Source: Brevundimonas diminuta 3F5N
GTDB lineage: Bacteria; Pseudomonadota; Alphaproteobacteria; Caulobacterales; Caulobacteraceae
DNA: 64,000 nt
Direction of reading: 5' to 3'
Assembly: GCF_900163625.1 (NCBI RefSeq)
Contig: NZ_FUIE01000045.1
Coordinates: 1 to 64,000 of the forward strand
Shown: positions 27,019 through 64,000 of the stretch, piece by piece
Numbering within the stretch: the stretch's first letter is position 1
Layout: every line of letters starts with the position of its first letter
Translations under genes and position numbers: made by a program
Notes under the pieces: generated by a model
The model's database searches: none
What the model was told of the DNA's origin: nothing
Seen by the model: only the letters and a program-made list of their open reading frames with translations

Positions 27019-27095
27019 GGGCGGCTAGCTCAGCTGGTCAGAGCATCTCGTTTACACCGAGAGGGTCGGCGGTTCGAACCCGTCGCCGCCTACCA
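27019..27095 (+). tRNA. tRNA-Val, anticodon UAC
   Basis: A complete cloverleaf: acceptor GGGCGGC pairs with GCCGCCT, the D-arm is TAGCTCAGCTGGTCAGA, and the anticodon stem TCTCG/CGAGA has loop TTTACAC giving anticodon TAC (reads GUA). The T-arm is GGCGG-TTCGAAC-CCGTC and the encoded end is ACCA. Its 3' end is the probable attachment site of the integrase element that begins just downstream. Confidence 0.97.
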
Positions 27096-27134
27096 AATTT
27101 TCCGAATAAAATCATAATCTTAAAAATGCTCTAC

Positions 27135-27156
27135 GCTCCGTGTGCGGAGCATTTTC
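27135..27156 (+). terminator. Intrinsic terminator after tRNA-Val
   Basis: Hairpin GCTCCG-TGTG-CGGAGC followed by ATTTTCT, 40 bases beyond the tRNA. Confidence 0.7.
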
Positions 27157-27170
27157 TACTTAGTTTTGGC

Positions 27171-27192
27171 GTTCTGGGGCGATTCTGGGGCA
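27171..27192 (+). repeat. Tandem 11-base repeat, candidate integrase arm sites
   Basis: TTCTGGGGC occurs at 27172-27180 and again at 27183-27191, an exact 11-base period (one helical turn). Such short direct repeats between a tRNA attachment site and an integrase gene are typical arm-type binding sites for the N-terminal domain of tyrosine integrases. Confidence 0.5.
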
Positions 27193-27428
27193 GTTTGCGC
27201 GGTGATTGACGGCCGCCATGGCGCGTGCAGCGTCATGAAATGTGCGGATTGCGTCAAAGGGCCGCAATGAGCTTTCCAGGGCTTTTCAGGGCGTTTCACC
27301 TGGCCTGACCGCGTCTGGAAAACCGGTTGTATCGACCGGTCAACCCGGGCTCGGATCCGCGATGCGCTCTGCAGCACGCGGTTATCCGGTGCTAGAATCA
27401 ATGGTCGTTGATTTGCAGCGATGAGCGC

Positions 27429-28997
27429 ATGGAGCGCGACTTGGCGGCGGGCACCCTCACGACGGATCGACAAATCTCGAGTCTGAAGCCGGGATCGACA
27501 GCCTATGAGCGAGCGGTCAGCGGAAGTCAGGGCCTGTTCGTTCGCGTGGCTCCCACCGGGACCAAGCAATTCCAGTACCGGTACATCGCGACAGGGGGCG
27601 CGCGCCGACGCCTGGTCCTGGGATTCTATCCCGGACTATCGCTCGCCAAGGCCAGAGCGGCTGGCGCTGCGGCGAGGATGGCCGTTCTGGAAGGGACCGA
27701 TCCTGTAGGGGAACGGGCCCTGGTTCGGGATCGAATGCGGACGGGCGAGACCCTGGACGAACTTGCCGAGGCCTACTGGGCGGCTGCCGCCGTGGGTCTT
27801 CATGGAGGTCGCCGTCGTCCCAAGCGGGCGATTTCAATCCAAAGGGAAAGACACACCTGGAAGAGGCATGTGAAGGGGCCATTGGGCGGACGCGTCTTTG
27901 CCGACATCCGTCGCGCCGACATCAAGGTCTTTATGCGGGACCTGGTTGTGGATGGCCGCTTTGCGCCCGCGACGATAGCGACCGTGGGCGGGATTCTTCA
28001 TGCCGTCCTAGGCTTTGCGGTTCTGGAGGAGCGGATCGAGGTCAATCCGGCGACCGGCCTCTCACGACCTCTGGCGTTGACCTCGCGAGAGCGGATGTTC
28101 GACGATGGGGCTTTGAAGGCGATATGGGACGTAGCGGTTCTGGCCTCCCAACCCCGAGGGCCGAACGAGAAGACCTCTGGAATTTATGCGCGCCTCGACC
28201 CTGCCATGGGGCTGGCGATTCAGTTCCTGATGCTCACCCTGACGCGGCGTAGCGAAATCGCCGGCGCTCGGAAGGTGGAGGTGGACCGAGCGGCGGGGCT
28301 CTGGATCATCCCCTCGGAGCGAGCCAAGGCGCGACATCCGCATGTGGTCCCCTTGGGCGCACAGTGCTTGGAGGTGCTCGACAAGGCTTGGGCTCTTGAT
28401 CCGGATAGTCCTTTCATCTTCCCATCTCCGCGCTCGCCGGATCAGCATCTTGACCCCCAAGCCATTACTCGGGCGATTGCGAGGACCTGCGCTCGAAAAA
28501 AGCTGCCCTTGGGGTCGCCTCATGACGTCAGGCGGTCCGGGGCGACGACCCTGACGGGGCGTTACGGGGTCACGCGCTTCATTGTCGGCCTTGTCCTTGG
28601 GCATACCCCGAGTGATGGGGCGGCGGTCACAGGGGTTTACGACCGGCACACCTATGTTCCAGAAAAGCGGAAGGCGTTGGAGCTATGGGCGGGCCATCTC
28701 TGCGGAGAGACGGTCTCGGACTCGGTGAAAGCGGTGTCTGTCGATGCCGAGGAGAGACCGACGGCCACTGCGGTTCTGGATGAGCTTGCTGTTTATGTGG
28801 GGGCGGCCAAGTCCCGTGCTCTCGCTTTGTGCGAGGTCGGGGATCTTCATTCGGCGGTGTTAAGCCTGTGCATGGACCTTTCGCGCCGTCCCGAGACGGC
28901 TAGCAGCCATTTGGAAATTCTCGCGCGTGGCGGGCTTGATCTGGCGATTTCCGGCTCGAGAGAAGGCGTGGAGGCTTGGGTGAATGGATTTCGGTGA
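27429..28997 (+). CDS. Tyrosine-type integrase of a tRNA-Val-targeting element
   Basis: A 522-residue site-specific recombinase. The N-terminal arm-binding domain is of the DUF4102 type (KQFQYRYIATGGARRRLVLG, residues about 40-60). A core-binding SAM-like domain and a catalytic domain follow. The catalytic set is Arg273/274 (TLTRRSEI), His365 and Arg368 (HDVRRS), a His in LGHTPSDG, and Tyr404 in YDRHTY. The ATG at 27429 is used; an in-frame TTG at 27408 is possible. A long C-terminal extension of about 100 residues beyond the tyrosine is unusual. It lies 330 bases after the tRNA and reads away from it. Confidence 0.92.
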   Translation: MERDLAAGTLTTDRQISSLKPGSTAYERAVSGSQGLFVRVAPTGTKQFQYRYIATGGARRRLVLGFYPGLSLAKARAAGAAARMAVLEGTDPVGERALVRDRMRTGETLDELAEAYWAAAAVGLHGGRRRPKRAISIQRERHTWKRHVKGPLGGRVFADIRRADIKVFMRDLVVDGRFAPATIATVGGILHAVLGFAVLEERIEVNPATGLSRPLALTSRERMFDDGALKAIWDVAVLASQPRGPNEKTSGIYARLDPAMGLAIQFLMLTLTRRSEIAGARKVEVDRAAGLWIIPSERAKARHPHVVPLGAQCLEVLDKAWALDPDSPFIFPSPRSPDQHLDPQAITRAIARTCARKKLPLGSPHDVRRSGATTLTGRYGVTRFIVGLVLGHTPSDGAAVTGVYDRHTYVPEKRKALELWAGHLCGETVSDSVKAVSVDAEERPTATAVLDELAVYVGAAKSRALALCEVGDLHSAVLSLCMDLSRRPETASSHLEILARGGLDLAISGSREGVEAWVNGFR

Positions 28998-36335: not shown

Positions 36336-37664
36336 TCAGAGCGCCTCGAAAGCCGTCTGGAGCCTCTCGATACGGGCGTTGATCGCGCCCATGACCGTCG
36401 TGTGGATGTCGGTGTGGAAGTCAGGCGGCATGGCGGCCAGGGCCGTGTTCGGCGCCGTGGCTGCGCCCGCGAAAATTTCATCGACGGCTTGGCGAATGAT
36501 CGTCGAACCGAGACCTGCGGCCTGGGCGGTTTCCACGAAATGGCGACCGTGGACATCCAGGATTTTGTAGTGGGGCGTGGCCCCTGCCGACATGGCCAGC
36601 TTGTACTGGGCATGGGAGATTTGCTTGGCGTTGAAGGCCTGCTGGACGGTCAGGACATCGTAGAAGGGCGTCAGGACAAAGCGCCCGCCTGGACGCAGGG
36701 CGAGGCTGAAATTCTTGCCGTGGCCGTCGGTCGCGCCGATCAGCCAGAACAGTATTTGGCTCTTCAGGAAGTCGGTTTGGTCGCGCAGCGGATCGTCGGA
36801 GCCTTGCAGGAGTTTTAGGATGTCCACCGCGCCGGGGCCGCCCTGGTTTTGGTATTTCCGACCGGGCGGAATGGACAGGGCCTGGCAGCAGTCTTCCTGC
36901 GGCAGGCGGATCAACTGGTCAGGGCCGCGCCAGAGACGGTCGAAGCGCTCGACAACCAGAACCTTCTTCGCGCCGAAGGTCGCGATCTGGGTGTTCGCCG
37001 TCTTGAGACCGAAGGCCCGGAGAAGTTGGAGGCAATAGTGTTCGTTATCGACGCTGTTGGACATGTCGACGAGGCCGGAGGCCGTCGGGATCTCTCCGAT
37101 CTGCGGCTTGAGGATGTGGGTCGTCGCCGTGGCGCGCAGCGGCCGTTTCCACTGCCCCTCATGGAACAACAGGGCGGTCTTCTCCTGGGCGCCGGCCACC
37201 GAAATGCGGAAGTCGTTGTCCTGGTCCATGCCGAGCGGCGCGCGCGCGAGATTGGCCAGAAGCGCCTCGATATCGGCCTCGCTGATAGGCTCGGCCTCTA
37301 TGGGCGTCATGGCGTCGAGGTCGACGCCCTCGGGGAGGACTTGCAGGGCGCCGACGCAGTCCCTGCCGATCTCGGCCAGCAGGCTGTAGGCGTCGGTTCC
37401 TGCAGCCCCGGTGCGTTCGGCGACCCGTCGGCGGACGTCGGCGTTGTCGGGCAGGAGATTGTCGAACATCGCCGTCACCGTCTCGCCCCTATAGGCGGTC
37501 GGGCGAACGGGCATGGAAAGCGAAATCGGGAAGTGCGGCGGCCAGTCCAGCCAGGCCGGATCATATTGGAAGGTGACGGCGCCGCCGGCTTCCTTATCCA
37601 GTCGCCCGACCCGCCGGTTGTTGATCATGACCGCCAGGGGAGCGTGAGCCTTGCGACGTCCCAT
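36336..37664 (-). CDS. hipA: HipA-family serine/threonine kinase toxin
   Basis: Toxin of a HipBA-type module; HipA kinases phosphorylate glutamate-tRNA ligase or similar targets and cause growth arrest. The 442-residue protein has an N-terminal domain with FPISLSMPVRP and MFDNLLPDNADVR. The phosphate-loop region is RISVAGAQEKTALL, with hinge residues near VVERFDRLW. The catalytic Asp is in IGATDGHGKNFSL and the metal site is YDVLTV. The start overlaps the hipB stop by one base (TAATG), the usual coupling. All core kinase motifs look intact. Confidence 0.92.
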   Translation of the reverse strand: MGRRKAHAPLAVMINNRRVGRLDKEAGGAVTFQYDPAWLDWPPHFPISLSMPVRPTAYRGETVTAMFDNLLPDNADVRRRVAERTGAAGTDAYSLLAEIGRDCVGALQVLPEGVDLDAMTPIEAEPISEADIEALLANLARAPLGMDQDNDFRISVAGAQEKTALLFHEGQWKRPLRATATTHILKPQIGEIPTASGLVDMSNSVDNEHYCLQLLRAFGLKTANTQIATFGAKKVLVVERFDRLWRGPDQLIRLPQEDCCQALSIPPGRKYQNQGGPGAVDILKLLQGSDDPLRDQTDFLKSQILFWLIGATDGHGKNFSLALRPGGRFVLTPFYDVLTVQQAFNAKQISHAQYKLAMSAGATPHYKILDVHGRHFVETAQAAGLGSTIIRQAVDEIFAGAATAPNTALAAMPPDFHTDIHTTVMGAINARIERLQTAFEAL

Positions 37665-39221: not shown

Positions 39222-39857
39222 ATGACATATGCGGTCAAAGAGGCTTTCCTGACGGTGCAGGGCGAGGGCGGGCAAGCAGGCCGCTCTGCCGTGTTTCTGC
39301 GCTTTGCAGGCTGCAACCTATGGAATGGGCTGGAGCGGGACCGGGCGAGCGCGGTCTGTTCCTTTTGCGATACGGATTTCGTCGGCGTTGACGGGGACGG
39401 CGGCGGCAAGTTTAAGGACGCCGAAGCCTTGTCAGACCATGTCGCCTCCTTGTGGAGAGGCCGCGTGGGCGATCCCAAGCTCGTGGTCTGCACCGGCGGG
39501 GAGCCGCTCCTGCAGCTGGATCCCGTCTTGATCGCGGCGCTGAAGAGGCAGGGCTTCGATATCGCGGTGGAGACGAACGGCACGGTGGCGGCGCCCGACG
39601 GCATCGACTGGATCTGCGTCAGTCCCAAGGCCGACGCGCCGGTCGTGCAGAAATCGGGGCAGGAGTTGAAGCTGGTCTTCCCCCAGGCCAAGGCCATGCC
39701 TGATCGGTTCGAGGGGCTCGATTTCGAACGCTTCTGGCTGCAGCCCATGGACGGGCCGGACCAGGTCGCGAATACGGCGGCGGCGATCGAATACTGCCTG
39801 ACGCGCCCCCAGTGGCGGCTCAGTGTCCAGACCCACAAATACATAGGCGTTCGCTGA
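39222..39857 (+). CDS. queE: 7-carboxy-7-deazaguanine synthase QueE
   Basis: Radical-SAM enzyme that converts 6-carboxy-tetrahydropterin to 7-carboxy-7-deazaguanine, the branch point to queuosine in tRNA and to deazaguanine bases in DNA. The 211-residue protein has GEGGQAGRSAVFLRFAGC and the variant cluster motif C-x14-C-x2-C (the last part is CSFCDTDF). The SAM-binding GGEP motif is in VCTGGEPLLQ, then VETNGTVAAP and ICVSPKAD. No queC, queD or queF lies nearby in the window, so it is isolated in accessory DNA. Confidence 0.92.
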   Translation: MTYAVKEAFLTVQGEGGQAGRSAVFLRFAGCNLWNGLERDRASAVCSFCDTDFVGVDGDGGGKFKDAEALSDHVASLWRGRVGDPKLVVCTGGEPLLQLDPVLIAALKRQGFDIAVETNGTVAAPDGIDWICVSPKADAPVVQKSGQELKLVFPQAKAMPDRFEGLDFERFWLQPMDGPDQVANTAAAIEYCLTRPQWRLSVQTHKYIGVR

Positions 39858-46320: not shown

Positions 46321-46573
46321 GAGCCCCCTCCGTTATTCGTGCAGGTTGCGCGGCATCCGGTAAGGCGGCGTCAATGGCCGTGGTTAATCCCCGGCTGGTT
46401 GGAGCAAACTCCCAAGCGTGGTTCACCCGGGTGGCTGCTTGATTCAGGATCTTGCTCGGCATGCGTCCGAAGGTGACGCAGTTATGTCGGACTAGGAATG
46501 CTTGGTTGAGCCGCCGGGTCTCTCAAGCATCGTTGAGCGACTTGGTCCGGGTCGGGGGAGGGAAGCTGGGAGC

Positions 46574-48103
46574 ATGGATCAAGTTACGGATGCTGTAGGC
46601 GGGTGTGGTGCAGTTCAGTCGAACGAGCGCCGGCGTTACGGGCTGTCGAAGTCAAAGATCGCGGCCTTTGAGCAGTGCCCGCGGAAGCTTTGGCTGGCTA
46701 GGCACAGGCCGGACCTGGCTATCGCCGATGACGGGGCTGAAGCCCGCTTCGCCACCGGCCATGAGGTCGGCGAACTCGCCTGCGGCCTGCTGCCGACAGG
46801 GGTGATGGTCGAGGCCGAGCCTGACCTGGCCGCCGCTGTCGCGCGGACGCGCGAGCTCATCGACGGCGGTTGGTCCGAGCCCATCTTCGAGGCGACCTTC
46901 GAGCACGACGGCGTGCTGGTGCGGGTGGACGTGCTGTCGCCTGGTTCGGACGGTTGGGCCATCGCCGAGGTGAAGAGTTCGGCGGGGGTGAAGGATTATC
47001 ATCTTGGCGACTTGGCGACCCAGGTGTGGGTCGTAACCCAGGCCGGGACGCCGGTGTCGTCAGCCTGCATCCGTCATATCGACAGCCACTTCCGGCTGGA
47101 ACGCGAGGGCGAATACGAAGGCCTGTTTCGGGACGCCGATTGTCTCGCGGCTCTGGGGGATCGCATCGCTGATCGCTCGAGGATCGTCGCTGAAGCGAGG
47201 GCCGTGCTGGCGGGCGACGAACCTGACGTCGGCACGGGCGAACACTGCAGCCGCCCGTTCGTCTGCGAGTTTTCGAGCTACTGCACCCGGAACGACCCGC
47301 CTGGACCTGAGTGGCCGATCAGCCTCTTGCCGCGTACGGGCAGGGCGGCGGCCGCGGAGTGGGCCCAGGAGGGCCTGTATGATCTTCGAGACCTGCCGTC
47401 GGGCGCCTTGACCAATGCAGTGCATGAGCGCGTGCGTCAGGCCACGGTGACGGGGGAGGTCTATCATGATCGCCAGGGTGCGATTGAAGCGACGCGCGGT
47501 TGGGCCTGGCCGCGGGCCTATCTCGACTTCGAGACCATAGGACCGGCCGTGCCGCGCTGGATCGGCGCCAGGCCCTTCCAGCAGATCCCGTTTCAGTTTT
47601 CGTGTCACATCGAGTCCGAAGCCGGCGAACTCGCCCATTCGGGCTTCCTGTCCATCGACGGCGGCGATCCGCGGCGGGCGTGCGCCGAGGCTCTGGTCGC
47701 GCTTCTGAGCGGCGAACGCTGCGGTTCGATCATCGCCTATAACGCCTCGTTCGAGAAACGCTGCGTCCGAGACCTGGCGGAGGTCTTTCCCGACCTGGCC
47801 GAGGCCCTGCTCGAGATCGAAGCCAAGATCGTCGATCTCCTGCCGGTGACGCGCAACTTCTATTATCACCGTGATCAGCGCGGGAGTTGGTCGATCAAGG
47901 CGGTGTTGCCCACGGTCGCGCCTGAACTCGCCTATGGCGATCTCGAGGTGAAGGACGGCGGCGCGGCGCAGCAGGCCTGGTTCGAGGCGGCCGGGCCCGA
48001 GACCAGCGAGGCGCGCCGGGAGCAGTGGAGGGCGGGCTTGGAAGCCTATTGTGAGCGCGACACCCAGGCGATGATCGTCTTGCTGACGCGGCTGACGGCC
48101 TAG
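46574..48103 (+). CDS. DUF2779-type fusion of Cas4-like Fe-S nuclease and DnaQ-like exonuclease
   Basis: A 509-residue protein. The N-terminal half resembles Cas4/RecB Fe-S nucleases: Cys35 in FEQCPRKLWL pairs with Cys225, Cys231 and Cys237 (HCSRPFVCEFSSYC) as likely cluster ligands. The PD-(D/E)XK core is visible as VLVRVDVL ... IAEVKSS. The C-terminal half has DEDD exonuclease motifs: LDFETIGP, IIAYNASFEKR and YCERDTQAM. The ATG 46574 follows GGGAGC. Such proteins are predicted to process DNA, but the role is unknown. It stands alone in accessory DNA. Confidence 0.8.
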   Translation: MDQVTDAVGGCGAVQSNERRRYGLSKSKIAAFEQCPRKLWLARHRPDLAIADDGAEARFATGHEVGELACGLLPTGVMVEAEPDLAAAVARTRELIDGGWSEPIFEATFEHDGVLVRVDVLSPGSDGWAIAEVKSSAGVKDYHLGDLATQVWVVTQAGTPVSSACIRHIDSHFRLEREGEYEGLFRDADCLAALGDRIADRSRIVAEARAVLAGDEPDVGTGEHCSRPFVCEFSSYCTRNDPPGPEWPISLLPRTGRAAAAEWAQEGLYDLRDLPSGALTNAVHERVRQATVTGEVYHDRQGAIEATRGWAWPRAYLDFETIGPAVPRWIGARPFQQIPFQFSCHIESEAGELAHSGFLSIDGGDPRRACAEALVALLSGERCGSIIAYNASFEKRCVRDLAEVFPDLAEALLEIEAKIVDLLPVTRNFYYHRDQRGSWSIKAVLPTVAPELAYGDLEVKDGGAAQQAWFEAAGPETSEARREQWRAGLEAYCERDTQAMIVLLTRLTA

Positions 48104-59718: not shown

Positions 59719-62028
59719 TTGAAAAGTTTCAGTGCGTCCACGGTTAAGTCGTGGTTCCAATACGGTTGCGAACGCAAGGTCCGGTACGAATTGTCCAGCG
59801 ACACCGAACTCGCTGCGGTGCCGGTGCTGAAGGATGTCCGAGAAGCCGCTTGGGCCAAACTCGGCAATGAGTTCGAAGATCGGGTTGTACGCCGTCTTGC
59901 GGCCGAGACCTCGGTTTTACAACCGTCGCCGGGCGACAAGGTGCTCTCCGAACGTTTGACCTTGGCGTTTCTGCGGGGCGAACGTGCAGAGACCTATGCC
60001 GCACAAGTGAACCTGAAACCGGCCCGCACGCCGAGTTTTCTTCAAGGGACCGGCCTCGACCTGAACCGCAACATCGCGGACCTAGTGCGCCGGACAATCC
60101 TGCCTGACGGCCGGGTTCAGTTCACGGTCATCGATATCAAGGCCACACGGCGCGCGACGGCTTTCCACAAGAATCAGATCGCTTTCTATGTAAGGGTTCT
60201 CGAGGAGCGTCTGGCTGAAATCGACCTTACCCGGCACGTCGTATTGGACCGGGAGGGGGAGGTATGGCGCATCCCTAATGACGGCACGGCGGACGGGGAC
60301 CGCGCTCAGGCGGAGGTCTTCGCTCTGCGTCCCTATCTGCGGCAGGTCGACGACTTTTGCCGTCTGAAATTGCCTGGGATCGCGAAAAAGGGGATCGGAG
60401 CGGGCGGCTTCGACCAGACCTTCTTCCACCTCTATTTCAAATGCGAACAGTGCGCGTTTCTTGAGCACTGCGAACAAGCGATAGCCCCCGTGCTTGGCGC
60501 CGCGCGTGACGTGTCCGCCGTCCCCGGCGTGACCCATGAATCGAAACGCGTTCTGGCCCAGCTCGGCGTTACGACTGTCGGCGGCCTGGCCAAGGCTCAC
60601 GGCTTGGCGAAGGCGCCGGGCGCGGGATGGTCGCTGACGCGTAACGCCCCTCGTCTGACCGCCCGCGCACAAGCCCTGGCCCAAGGCGCCATTCTGCGGA
60701 CTGATGAAGAGCATAGCTTTCTCATGCCGCCACGCGCTGACGTGAGGTTGTTCCTCTCGCTCGACTACGATCCCGTCGATGATCGGATCGCCGCCGTGGG
60801 CTACCGTCGCGTCGAGGACGGACAAACCTTAAGCGCCGCCGTCAGCGTGCCGCAGAGCGCCTCACTGCAGGATGAGGCGGACGCCCTCATCTTCGTGATG
60901 GGGCGGTTGATCAGCGATCTGGCGGGGGTGGACCAGGACAATCGCAAGGCTCAGGAGGTTGAAGACGAGGCGGCGCTGAAGTACGCCCACATCTTCTTCT
61001 ATGAGCCGTCTGAAGCGCTCAATCTTCAGAAGGCGCTGGGGCGCCACCTGGATGACCCGCGGGTCCGCAGCGGGCTGCTGCATCTCGTGCGCCTCTTCCC
61101 GCCGGACGACGTGGTTCCCGAGCCCGAGTTCAAGGGGGCTCACCATCTGCCCGCCACCGCATTGCGCAGCGTGATTGAACAGCTCTACGCCCTGCCGGTC
61201 GCTGTGGCCTATGATCTGCGTCAGGTCAGCCAAGCCTTGGCCGACCAGGGCGCTGCGACGCCCTATCATCCTAGTCGGGGCTTTGAACGACCCTTCTCAT
61301 CGCTCTTGTCGATCGACGTCATTCGCGGGCTTCGCGATGGTGCGGCGGGCGCTCCCTCAGCGCACGACATCGAGACCGACGTGTCGGCGCGATTGGACGC
61401 TTTGCAGGGGGCTACCGCCTGGCTGTACGCCCAACACGCGGCGGCGGCGGATAGGGGCGCGCCGCTCTTGCGGCTGACCAAACGACCGTTCCGCTTCCAT
61501 GAGACTTTTGATCCACTTGATGCGGCGGACCTGGACGTCCTGCTTGCTTGCGAACTGCTGGAGAACCGCGCGAGCCTCTTGGAAACCCTGGTTGGACTGG
61601 CCCAGCCCGCTGCCCGCCGCCGTGATGCTGGGCGTTGTATGGCGGGATTGGAGCTGATGAGAGTGTCGAACTACGGGCCGCGCAAAAAGCTGCTTGTGTT
61701 CCGGGCGCCGCCAGCCAGCCAAGAGACAGATCTCGGGCCAGGCGACTTCAAATTGATTCTGACTGACGACAATCCGGACCTACGGCTGGATGCGACCCAG
61801 TGGGCTCTGGTGAATTGCAGGATCAAGACGCCCGACGAAGACGATCTGTCCCAGCCTCACATCGTGAAGGTCGTGATGGACAAAGACATCTTTGAAGGTT
61901 CAGTGATGCAGGCGTTGCTCAAATCCACCCCCAGGGACGGATGGCACCTCGATCGGCCCTTCTTCGATGTGAACACGGACAAGGCTGAGCGCTTCCTGCG
62001 TCACCTTTCGGCAGGGCAGGCGGCATGA
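59719..62028 (+). CDS. Cas4/RecB-like Fe-S nuclease with HhH and DnaQ-like regions (TM0106 type)
   Basis: About 769 residues from TTG 59719, which follows GGAGGA and gives the family-like opening KSFSASTVKSWFQYGCERK; TTG 59683 or GTG 59692 would add 9-12 residues. Likely Fe-S ligands are Cys17 and Cys242, Cys245, Cys251 (KCEQCAFLEHCEQ). The nuclease core is DLVRRTIL ... VIDIKATRR (Asp139, Lys141). A helix-hairpin-helix lies near 265-290 (VPGVTHESKRVLAQLGV). Residues 330-450 resemble the RNase H-like exonuclease of TM0106 proteins, but its first motif reads LDYD, not DxE. The rest is not recognised. It overlaps the helicase gene by four bases. Confidence 0.75.
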   Translation: MKSFSASTVKSWFQYGCERKVRYELSSDTELAAVPVLKDVREAAWAKLGNEFEDRVVRRLAAETSVLQPSPGDKVLSERLTLAFLRGERAETYAAQVNLKPARTPSFLQGTGLDLNRNIADLVRRTILPDGRVQFTVIDIKATRRATAFHKNQIAFYVRVLEERLAEIDLTRHVVLDREGEVWRIPNDGTADGDRAQAEVFALRPYLRQVDDFCRLKLPGIAKKGIGAGGFDQTFFHLYFKCEQCAFLEHCEQAIAPVLGAARDVSAVPGVTHESKRVLAQLGVTTVGGLAKAHGLAKAPGAGWSLTRNAPRLTARAQALAQGAILRTDEEHSFLMPPRADVRLFLSLDYDPVDDRIAAVGYRRVEDGQTLSAAVSVPQSASLQDEADALIFVMGRLISDLAGVDQDNRKAQEVEDEAALKYAHIFFYEPSEALNLQKALGRHLDDPRVRSGLLHLVRLFPPDDVVPEPEFKGAHHLPATALRSVIEQLYALPVAVAYDLRQVSQALADQGAATPYHPSRGFERPFSSLLSIDVIRGLRDGAAGAPSAHDIETDVSARLDALQGATAWLYAQHAAAADRGAPLLRLTKRPFRFHETFDPLDAADLDVLLACELLENRASLLETLVGLAQPAARRRDAGRCMAGLELMRVSNYGPRKKLLVFRAPPASQETDLGPGDFKLILTDDNPDLRLDATQWALVNCRIKTPDEDDLSQPHIVKVVMDKDIFEGSVMQALLKSTPRDGWHLDRPFFDVNTDKAERFLRHLSAGQAA

Positions 62029-64000
62029 GCGTGCGTGAACACATCCTTCGTTTCCTCACGGAACCTGGCGTCTTTGCGCGGGACGCGAGCGATCCTGACG
62101 TCTGGCTGGAAGCGATGACCGAGTTCACCGCCCCCCTCCTGGAGGCGGGTGGCGGTTCAGCTTTAAGGGAAGCCCAAGAGGCGGCCTGGCGAGGCCTCGC
62201 CCCGGCGAGGGCTGGCCTCATTCTAGGCCCCCCCGGCACCGGCAAGACCCATCTGCTGGCCTGGTTGATTGTCGGCTACATTCTAGCGCGGCGCCGCGCA
62301 GGCTTGCCGGCTCGTGTTTTCGTCAGCGCGTTCACGCGCAACGCCATCGGAAACCTCCTGGACGGGGTGGCGTCTCGCGTCGCCCAATTCGCGCCGGAGG
62401 CGTTCGAAACCCATTATCTCGGCGCTGCGCCGCCAGCCGGTCTTTCGGATCGCGTCAAGCATCGCGTCTCCGTGACCAAGGAGGAAGGCGAAGCGGCTTT
62501 TGCTGACCTGTCGGCCGAGGCGGTGGTGGTCGGCGCCTCTGTTTGGCAACTTCACCGTCTGATGAGCCATAGGAAGGCGCCGGGCGACGGGGTGGTCGCG
62601 CCCGTCTTTGATCTCGTCTGCATAGATGAGGCTTCTCAGTTGGTCCTGAGCCAAGGTTTGATGGCTCTGGCGGGATTGAGGCCTGGAGGGCGCGTGGTCG
62701 TGGCCGGCGATGATCGCCAGCTTCCGCCGATCCGCTCGGGGCGAGACGTGGACGTCGAAGGCCGTCAACTCGGAGGCTCCCTTTACGCCTTCCTGAAATC
62801 GGCGGGCGTGCCTGAGTTTCCGCTCGAAGAAACCTTCCGGCTGAATGGGCCGTTGACGGTGTTTCCAGAGAAATCCTTCTATCCAGGCCAGTATCGATCT
62901 GCGGATCCGGTGAAGGACGCGCGCTTGGCGTTGAAGTCCGAATGGCGTGAAGGGCTTGAGGCGTGGGAGGCCTTCGCGCTCGATCCGGACTGGCCGATCG
63001 CCGTCCTCGTGCATGACGGGCCGTCCGCCGCCAGCAGCAATCCGTTCGAGGCCTGGGTAGGCGCGCGTTTGATCCAGCGATTGGCGGAGCGCATGGAGGA
63101 CGTGCATCTGCATGACGGCGCCTATGCGCCGGAGCTCTGGCGCGAACGTTTGGCGGCCGTCAGCCCCCACCGCGCCCAGAACGCAGCGATTAGAAGCGCC
63201 CTGTCCACGGCGTTGAAGCCGAACGCCTTCGTTGAAACGGTCGATCGGATCCAGGGCAAGGAGCGCGACGCCATTGTCTTCTCCTACTGCGTGGCCGATC
63301 CGGAATTCGCTCTAGCTGAAGCAGACTTCATTTTCGCGCCGGAGCGTCTGAACGTTGCCGTGACCCGGGCGCGTCATAAGCTGATCATGTTGGTCAGTCG
63401 CCGTCTGCTGGAAGCGGCGCCTGCCGACCAAGAACAGATGGACAAGGCAGAACTGGTTCGAGAATTCGTTTTCAACGCCGACCTGAAGCGTGAACTCGAG
63501 ATCGTCGACGGCGCCGGACAGCGGGTGAAGGTCCAGGTTCGTCTGGCCGGCTTCGCCGATGCTCCCGAACTGGTCGATCCGCCGGTCAAGGAAGCGCCGT
63601 CTGCTGGACCAGCGGACGCCCTTTTGGATGAGGACGCGCATCTGCTTCAGGCCGTCCGGGATATCGCGCTCTCCAACGCCTTTGGCACGGCCGCCAGTTT
63701 CGCCCTGGAGGCCCGGATCGGACGCAAGCCAGTCCTACCGGGACTGGCGCGACTGCAGTCTCGAGGCTTGATCGATCTACGTCAGCAGCAAGGGCCACGA
63801 GAAGCCTTCTGGGTCGCTCGACCGTTGGATCCGCAGCGAAGAGTCTATCAACCTGACTATGAAACGGTTCGAGCGCGCGCTGAGGAAGTCGTAAGCCAGG
63901 CTCGTCGTGGGCGAAAGGCGCCCCTGTATGATGACGTACGCCGCCAGTTCGCCTGGGTTGACGCTCAAGGCAACGACGTGGTCCGCGTCAGTTTCGACAG
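62025..64000 (+). CDS. SF1 (UPF1/Dna2-like) helicase, 3' end cut by window edge
   Basis: About 658 codons are present. Walker A is GPPGTGKTHLL (Gly68 to Lys74), motif Ia is FVSAFTRNAIGNLLDG, and Walker B/II is DLVCIDEASQL (Asp201, Glu202). Motif III is VVVAGDDRQLPPI, motif V is ETVDRIQGKERDAIV and motif VI is LNVAVTRARHKLIML. These are the AAA_11/AAA_12 helicase motifs shared with Dna2 and UPF1. The region after residue 530 looks like a winged-helix-containing C-terminal domain. It is coupled by ATGA to the nuclease, so both proteins likely form one DNA- or RNA-processing complex. Confidence 0.88.
   Translation, partial: MSVREHILRFLTEPGVFARDASDPDVWLEAMTEFTAPLLEAGGGSALREAQEAAWRGLAPARAGLILGPPGTGKTHLLAWLIVGYILARRRAGLPARVFVSAFTRNAIGNLLDGVASRVAQFAPEAFETHYLGAAPPAGLSDRVKHRVSVTKEEGEAAFADLSAEAVVVGASVWQLHRLMSHRKAPGDGVVAPVFDLVCIDEASQLVLSQGLMALAGLRPGGRVVVAGDDRQLPPIRSGRDVDVEGRQLGGSLYAFLKSAGVPEFPLEETFRLNGPLTVFPEKSFYPGQYRSADPVKDARLALKSEWREGLEAWEAFALDPDWPIAVLVHDGPSAASSNPFEAWVGARLIQRLAERMEDVHLHDGAYAPELWRERLAAVSPHRAQNAAIRSALSTALKPNAFVETVDRIQGKERDAIVFSYCVADPEFALAEADFIFAPERLNVAVTRARHKLIMLVSRRLLEAAPADQEQMDKAELVREFVFNADLKRELEIVDGAGQRVKVQVRLAGFADAPELVDPPVKEAPSAGPADALLDEDAHLLQAVRDIALSNAFGTAASFALEARIGRKPVLPGLARLQSRGLIDLRQQQGPREAFWVARPLDPQRRVYQPDYETVRARAEEVVSQARRGRKAPLYDDVRRQFAWVDAQGNDVVRVSFD

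Follow-up and report, generated by a model that had tools for sequence, protein, structure and literature searches.

A putative split nuclease-helicase as the probable restriction arm of a variant Dpd island in Brevundimonas diminuta 3F5N

The first 64,000 nucleotides of contig NZ_FUIE01000045.1 of Brevundimonas diminuta 3F5N (assembly GCF_900163625.1), hereafter the window, end in two overlapping genes (Table 1). Gene 2 forms the beginning of dpdJ, and the locus is a Dpd island, i.e., a restriction-modification system based on 7-deazaguanine in DNA. Gene 1 encodes an iron-sulfur (Fe-S) nuclease-like protein. We propose, with a probability of roughly 0.78, that in this variant of the Dpd island gene 1 supplies the nuclease and gene 2 the motor of restriction, with a split nuclease-helicase replacing the phospholipase D-type (PLD) nuclease DpdK and destroying unmarked DNA. 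The observations are the gene content, the co-occurrence of the genes, the failure to find DpdK, the predicted folds, the conserved catalytic residues and the collinearity with single-chain proteins.

From the window by itself the initial annotation had described the pair as a candidate new defence or repair system. A stand-alone new system or repair pair was dropped after the contig (89,994 bases) was read beyond position 64000, where dpdJ continues and other Dpd genes follow. The defence context and the translational coupling of an Fe-S nuclease to a superfamily 1 (SF1) helicase stand, but the pair is not a system of its own, as gene 2 is part of dpdJ. Because the neighbours past the window edge form a Dpd island, a known system accounts for half of the pair; it covers gene 2 and not gene 1. 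Gene 2 is cut at window base 64000. In full it encodes 2117 amino acids (aa), ends at contig base 68378, and is matched by the PADLOC profile for DpdJ (PDLC02895) with an E-value of 6e-202 for the window part and with 2110 bits over residues 1-2115 for the full gene. Its first half carries the complete set of SF1 motifs that was read there originally (GPPGTGKT, DEAS, GDxxQLPP, VDRIQGKERD, and NVAxTRA) and matches AAA_12 with 75 bits. The motifs of the superfamily 2 (SF2) motor in the C-terminal half (TGxGKTEA, DEIH, SAT, and QRxGRxGR) are kept in 33 aligned sequences, gaps being passed over. The same 33 long DpdJ proteins have a C-terminal C-x-DGC-x2-C set, which was not found in the last 260 residues of two short DpdJ proteins examined. 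The PADLOC library includes a long DpdJ profile of 2112 positions, and the fused protein has thus already been seen by the makers of PADLOC.

Beyond the window edge follow a weakly matched dpdI, dpdH, dpdG and dpdF, queC and queD, dpdA between two dpdB genes, and a dpdC-like gene; Pfam recognises QueC and a DndB-type DpdB among their products. In a published Dpd survey dpdA and dpdB are the required genes, and both are present here, while DpdF, DpdG, DpdH, DpdJ, dpdC, DpdK, DpdE, and DpdD are optional (PMC11888242). There was no match to DpdK in the genome at E 0.001 and none to the SNF2 helicase DpdE at 1e-10, and DpdD was not found by profile in a search limited to the island rather than genome-wide. 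The custom profiles used were seeded with this genome, three plasmids and canonical loci, so that matches in those records arise by construction.

Relatives of gene 1 were found by tblastn on plasmids as four full-length copies (Skermanella, Caulobacter, Azospirillum, and Methylobacterium; 50-58% identical) and a partial match in Chlorohelix, and at 32 loci in a profile scan of 84,980 species genomes. Thirty-three copies are intact, i.e., that of the window, 4 from plasmids, 27 from genome loci and one from a 'phage' record; not counted are three at contig ends (L037, L039, and L042), one with many frameshifts (L038) and a fragment that is a second partial Devosia copy (L041). In 33 of 33 gene 1 directly precedes a DpdJ frame with fused SF1 and YprA halves (the window being checked via L003, and the frames of L024 and L035 running off the contig inside the YprA half). 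In 28 of them the stop of gene 1 overlaps the nearest in-frame dpdJ start by the four bases NTGA (exceptions L008, L028, L030, L032, and L033); in the window this is the ATGA overlap at 62025-62028, as annotated at the outset. The genome scan used gene 1 alone, and the neighbouring genes are therefore independent evidence. Among the 32 genomes and plasmids tabulated (L045, the same as L035, is omitted) DpdH was present in 31, DpdI in 30, DpdG, DpdF, DpdA, and DpdB in 29 each, DpdC in 28, QueC in 27, QueE in 25, QueD in 24, and a DpdE-like SNF2 protein in 4; DpdK and DpdD were found in none, and the short-DpdJ profile was the best match in none. The four DpdE-like proteins (Archangium, UBP9, and two Sphingomonas) score 128-191 bits compared to about 1900-2000 for the two DpdE seeds. 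On plasmids, gene 1 (4 records, at least 80% cover) and DpdK (8 records) never occur in one record.

Residues of gene 1 are numbered from the TTG at 59719, a start position matched by TTG in Brevundimonas L011. The four Fe-S cysteines and the PD-(D/E)XK core recognised earlier were borne out, as C17, E53, D121, D139, K141, H150, Q153, Y157, C242, C245, and C251 are invariant in all 33 aligned copies, window included, a set in which 28 sequences are left once rows more than 90% alike are removed. C17, C242, and C245 lie within the search patterns of the genome scan, which makes their invariance partly built in for the genome loci; the other invariant residues lie outside these patterns. The Cas4/Dna2-type four-cysteine set around the core is likewise kept in 33 of 33, with three of its cysteines partly pattern-selected. 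The best named relative is TM0106 (TIGR03491; E 2.4e-12, 46.6 bits, under the curated cut-off of 97.45). All 25 members of one gene 1 alignment (A6) match TM0106 at E 0.001 or better, which makes gene 1 a relative of that family. The Cas4 model reaches 12.4 bits, below its curated cut-off of 65. No PADLOC Dpd profile matches gene 1, for which PADLOC gives a weak Cas4 only (E about 0.03); a Pfam scan of gene 1 returned nothing, and its profile had 0 matches to solved structures by sequence at E 0.01. Kinship to DpdD was considered and rejected (E 0.47 against the DpdD alignment A4), a weak negative since one row of A4 was wrong: the '3-5 exonuclease' of Deinococcus L048 seems to be a helicase rather than a DpdD.

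An AlphaFold model of gene 1, with the 25 sequences of A6 as input, has a mean predicted local distance difference test score (pLDDT) of 83.2 and falls into three parts. A6 holds 25 of the 33 copies and leaves out L006-L009, L045, and, as near repeats, L014, L027, and L029; alignment A8, with 26 sequences, keeps L014. Residues 1-299 match type I-C Cas4 (8d3l_J) with Z 11.9 over 203 aligned residues at a root-mean-square deviation (rmsd) of 6.3, and Dna2, EXO5, and MGME1 are among the top Foldseek rows for the model. Residues 339-625 have a DnaQ fold matched by polymerase exonuclease domains with Z up to 13.2 (190 aligned, rmsd 4.0). The DnaQ-like region reported in the initial annotation is therefore real, but its description as degenerate perhaps is not, as D349, D351, E432, and D554 are acidic and invariant in 33 of 33. 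The succession of these residues in the fold suggests that they are its four metal ligands. The conserved His or Tyr usual before the last Asp (D554) was not found in the aligned gene 1 copies. The roughly 300 residues that had seemed unrecognisable belong to the rest of this fold and to a stalk and beta-barrel like helicase domain 1B.

Folded alone, residues 540-769 (pLDDT 81.0) match the stalk and beta-barrel of Dna2 (5ean) with Z 9.3 over 112 aligned residues at rmsd 2.8. IGHMBP2 (4b3f) follows with Z 9.2, Senataxin, Sen1, and Upf1 match too, and structure rows 1-10 (Z 9.3-6.9) are all Dna2/UPF1-like helicases. In its predicted fold the C terminus of gene 1 resembles domain 1B of Dna2 and IGHMBP2. 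In helicases of this type RecA1 directly follows the barrel. By predicted structure (Z 9.3, no sequence match) a 1B-like barrel would be located in the gene 1 chain, and DpdJ has only about 46 residues before motif Q. As gene 1 ends in a predicted 1B-like barrel and DpdJ starts at once with RecA1, the gene border appears to lie inside one helicase. Three single chains (Chlorohelix, Bradyrhizobium, and Rhizobium leguminosarum; 1326-1416 aa) match gene 1 with their N-terminal halves (82, 19, and 23 bits) and the SF1 half of DpdJ with their C-terminal halves (219, 193, and 168 bits, respectively). An hhalign comparison of gene 1 with the single-chain nuclease-helicases is collinear over 651 columns (probability 99.4%, E 3.5e-21), and in an SF1 tree DpdJ groups with the three single chains (93/96), apart from three classical TM0106 chains. 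The relationship to TM0106-type single chains seen in the initial annotation is borne out, with the TM0106 match itself below cut-off.

The variant may be pictured to work as follows. DpdA and DpdB, together with the preQ0 enzymes, would place a 7-deazaguanine base in the DNA of the cell. The gene 1 protein and DpdJ would assemble into one Dna2/TM0106-like nuclease-helicase, its chain presumably broken between domain 1B at the end of gene 1 and RecA1 at the start of DpdJ, with DpdJ probably contributing a second, YprA-type motor. This machine might load on unmarked DNA, with DpdF, DpdG, DpdH, and DpdI assisting in recognition, unwind it while translocating with one or both motors, and degrade it with the Cas4-like, perhaps also the DnaQ-like, active site. 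It would thereby stand in for DpdK. The physical complex, the nuclease activity and the choice of target by gene 1 and DpdJ are what we infer. It is tempting to speculate, at somewhat less than even odds, that this is a machine of two unlike motors, with an SF1 motor split between 1B plus two nuclease domains on one chain and RecA1-RecA2 on the second chain, which also carries an SF2 YprA motor C-terminally. Such a RecBCD-like bipolar engine would sense absent 7-deazaguanine and shred the DNA, and could derive from a single-chain nuclease-helicase that was captured, split and displaced DpdK.

Several points weigh against a split nuclease-helicase. Among the Foldseek rows for the whole gene 1 model, a single one, that of Dna2, has E below 0.001. 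For the C terminus, Z of about 9 is moderate, the structure list passes without a gap into reductase-type barrels (best non-helicase Z 6.8), and Foldseek places such barrels within its first ten rows. The resemblance to 1B is one of predicted structure alone: the isolated C terminus has no sequence match to the single-chain nuclease-helicases (hhalign probability 0.1%), and the full-length alignment stops near residue 690, leaving the last part of the barrel unreached. The SF1 tree has 20 rows, several on long branches. Finally, in Sphingomonas IC-56 a 420-aa PLD protein (L071:8415-9677) adjoins the DpdE-like SNF2 gene at the island edge, the only one in the frames of all loci examined, and shows that the replacement of PLD activity is not absolute.

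This extra PLD protein also favours a different, unlikely, role for gene 1, as an accessory of the Dpd system in end-trimming, repair of self-damage or control of DpdJ, with another component doing the cutting. A nuclease could be hidden among the other components, as the Pfam scan of the island proteins shows for DpdH only a sub-threshold NACHT/AAA match and for DpdG and DpdI nothing. On the other hand Pfam detects no further nuclease in the island proteins that were scanned, the catalytic residues of gene 1 are invariant in every intact copy, and DpdK, the canonical PLD nuclease, is without a convincing match in 36 of 36 genomes and plasmid records. The profile used, built from four DpdK proteins, gave four short patches inside larger frames (E 1.8e-4 to 5.6e-4), one of them the IC-56 protein.

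It is very improbable that the island is decayed or inactive in its own genome. The distance of 20 kb to queE suggests rearrangement, and another genome of the genus has gene 1 as a shortened frame of 540 aa, possibly through decay (G580:C1:1728235-1729794). No broken dpd frame was seen, however, and DpdJ, DpdH, DpdF, DpdA, and DpdB cover their PADLOC profiles almost fully. The queE of the window shares 84% identity with the copy that immediately precedes gene 1 in Brevundimonas L011, and compared to that locus the spacing here looks like an insertion of about 20 kb; a second queE (83%) is found elsewhere in the genome.

Replication or repair, initially held to be equally possible, is unsupported, and a general Dna2-like factor lying by chance beside Dpd genes is hardly credible despite folds related to Dna2 and TM0106, as dpdA accompanies the pair in 29 of 32 genomes and plasmids with the other three truncated at contig ends, DpdJ itself contains the SF1 half, and the distribution is sporadic (6 of 299 genomes sampled from the family, own included, and the own genome only among 385 from the class) and plasmid-borne in four records. 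The flanks read in the three genomes without visible dpdA are each cut on one side: the Rubritepida contig ends just past dpdH, that of Rhodobacter is 8 kb long, and that of Croceicoccus ends just before gene 1. In the family and class scans at most 2-3 candidates were scored per genome. The island is nearly identical in Croceicoccus, Altererythrobacter, Erythrobacter, and Ponticaulis (L026, L027, L029, and L042, respectively; 96.9-99.6% DNA identity over 9-22 kb), which points to recent transfer between genera.

The proposed arm may be compared to known systems. TM0106 (TIGR03491)/UPF1-type single chains also have an Fe-S RecB-type nuclease first and an SF1 helicase last, whereas here there are two genes, the SF1 half is fused to a YprA helicase, and gene 1 is below the family cut-off. 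Dna2 has nuclease, stalk and barrel, and then the SF1 motor; it differs from the present pair, in which the chain is broken after the barrel, a DnaQ-fold domain is added and the context is bacterial defence. RecBCD and AdnAB, the latter with one row in the structure matches, offer an analogy in that two motors are combined with a PD-(D/E)XK nuclease, but here SF1 and SF2 motors are in one chain and nothing points to a shared ancestral complex. Canonical Dpd islands (Salmonella Montevideo, Enterobacter L043, and Agrobacterium L044) have in common with the variant dpdA, dpdB, dpdF-dpdJ, the YprA-type half of DpdJ and, in many, the preQ0 genes. In contrast to them dpdK, dpdD, and mostly dpdE were not found here, gene 1 is present, and DpdJ is extended N-terminally by a whole SF1 motor and carries the C-terminal cysteine set. 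Two dpdB genes flanking dpdA are also seen in Agrobacterium L044 and make no distinction. BRIGADE, described in a 2025 preprint by Bell et al., likewise has Dpd-like base modification genes and a YprA helicase, with PLD sometimes replaced by PD-(D/E)XK, but usually has two YprA helicases and was reported only from halophilic archaea, whereas here one YprA half was found, fused to SF1, in bacteria; the main text of the preprint makes no mention of UPF1 or TM0106 (PMC12458937).

In the earlier literature, plasmid DNA without the modification is stated to be restricted more than 1000-fold by the dpd cluster of S. Montevideo (as cited in PMC5567051). Cas4-like nucleases in the neighbourhood of tgt genes are mentioned, with data not shown, in a paper of 2017, and a BREX hybrid with a Dpd-type transglycosylase is described in passages that contain no gene-1-type nuclease (PMC12839542). 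The open-access literature searched contained no account of the gene 1 component or of a split helicase with this architecture, and no paper linking TM0106 with a nuclease.

Other arrangements were seen on rhizobial plasmids. In Bradyrhizobium sp. 27S5 and Rhizobium leguminosarum (L084:1205-6564 and L085:1217-6567) the single-chain nuclease-helicases, 1416 and 1414 aa, are convergent with a DNA methyltransferase gene, possibly as another, methylation-based restriction system on the same machine. A plasmid of Bradyrhizobium 41S5 (L047:14082-17679) has a dpdA/dpdB/queCDE module with genes for a PD-(D/E)XK nuclease and a UvrD helicase close by, which may be a further kind of restriction arm; no custom dpdF-K profile matched in the 41 kb examined. 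In Devosia sp. ZB163 (L041, L015/L054) gene 1 and dpdH each occur a second time as remnants, in addition to a full island, the dpdF of which is in two frames. A phage origin was rejected, as the only match in a phage collection, the unverified 'Bacteriophage sp.' record MT835580.1 (L045), shares 99.9% identity with Sphingomonas parapaucimobilis L035 across 18 kb of the island and is probably bacterial DNA; a scan of viral contigs for close relatives found none.

Of the accessory setting described in the initial annotation, HipA at 36336-37664 and an integrase at 27408-28997 were recovered. At 27019-28997 this Arm-DNA-bind/tyrosine integrase follows a tRNA-Val, which has a Lon protease gene immediately to its left, and it is possible that this is the left end of an integrated element carrying the Dpd island. 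At the opposite contig end lies a DUF3363 protein (L004:11541-12899), which we take to be relaxase-like. The same accessory stretch has at 46502-48103 a DUF2779 protein (144 bits), of a presumably Cas4-like type, with no visible link to the Dpd genes.

Table 1. Features of the gene 1-dpdJ pair and of the surrounding Dpd island. Positions are those of the window unless marked as contig positions.
Feature	Position	Strand or orientation	Description
Gene 1	59719..62028	+	769 aa, TTG start; Fe-S PD-(D/E)XK nuclease, DnaQ-fold domain and stalk/beta-barrel; proposed Dpd nuclease replacing DpdK
Gene 1 residues 1-299	59719..60615	+	Cas4/Dna2/EXO5-like nuclease domain; cysteines 17, 242, 245, 251; D121, D139-x-K141, Q153, Y157
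Gene 1 residues 339-625	60733..61593	+	DnaQ-like (DEDD) exonuclease fold; D349, D351, E432, D554 invariant; putative catalytic role
Gene 1 residues 601-769	61519..62025	+	Stalk helix and beta-barrel like domain 1B of UPF1-like SF1 helicases, in predicted structure only
dpdJ, first 658 codons	62025..64000	+	SF1 motor; motif Q about 47-51, Walker A 68-75; YprA-like SF2 motor beyond the window
queE copy	39222..39857	+	preQ0 pathway; 20 kb left of gene 1; possibly the island's own
dpdI (weak)	contig 68375-69070	convergent with dpdJ	PADLOC E 0.0097, marginal
dpdH	contig 69067-72318	convergent with dpdJ	PADLOC E 4e-218
dpdG	contig 72311-73192	convergent with dpdJ	PADLOC E 2e-7
dpdF	contig 73189-75702	convergent with dpdJ	PADLOC E 2.7e-188
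queC	contig 75849-76652		Pfam QueC, 237 bits
queD	after queC		166 bits, custom profile
dpdB-like gene	contig 76960-78216		Custom profile
dpdA	contig 78060-79346		PADLOC E 2.7e-164
dpdB	contig 79343-80512		PADLOC E 6.1e-128
dpdC-like gene	contig 80440-81354		DUF6884 23.7 bits, below cut-off 30; matches a custom profile seeded with this gene itself

If the reading of gene 1 and DpdJ as a restriction arm is correct, a recognisable nuclease-helicase in place of a small PLD nuclease would provide the Dpd system with a concrete, testable effector. The variant separates the part shared among Dpd islands (DpdA and DpdB, DpdF-DpdH, and the YprA half of DpdJ) from a part that would be exchangeable, and it may show a helicase divided at the 1B-RecA1 border, with a second motor fused to it. 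PADLOC calls DpdJ at this locus and gene 1 only as a weak Cas4, and defence finders could add gene 1.

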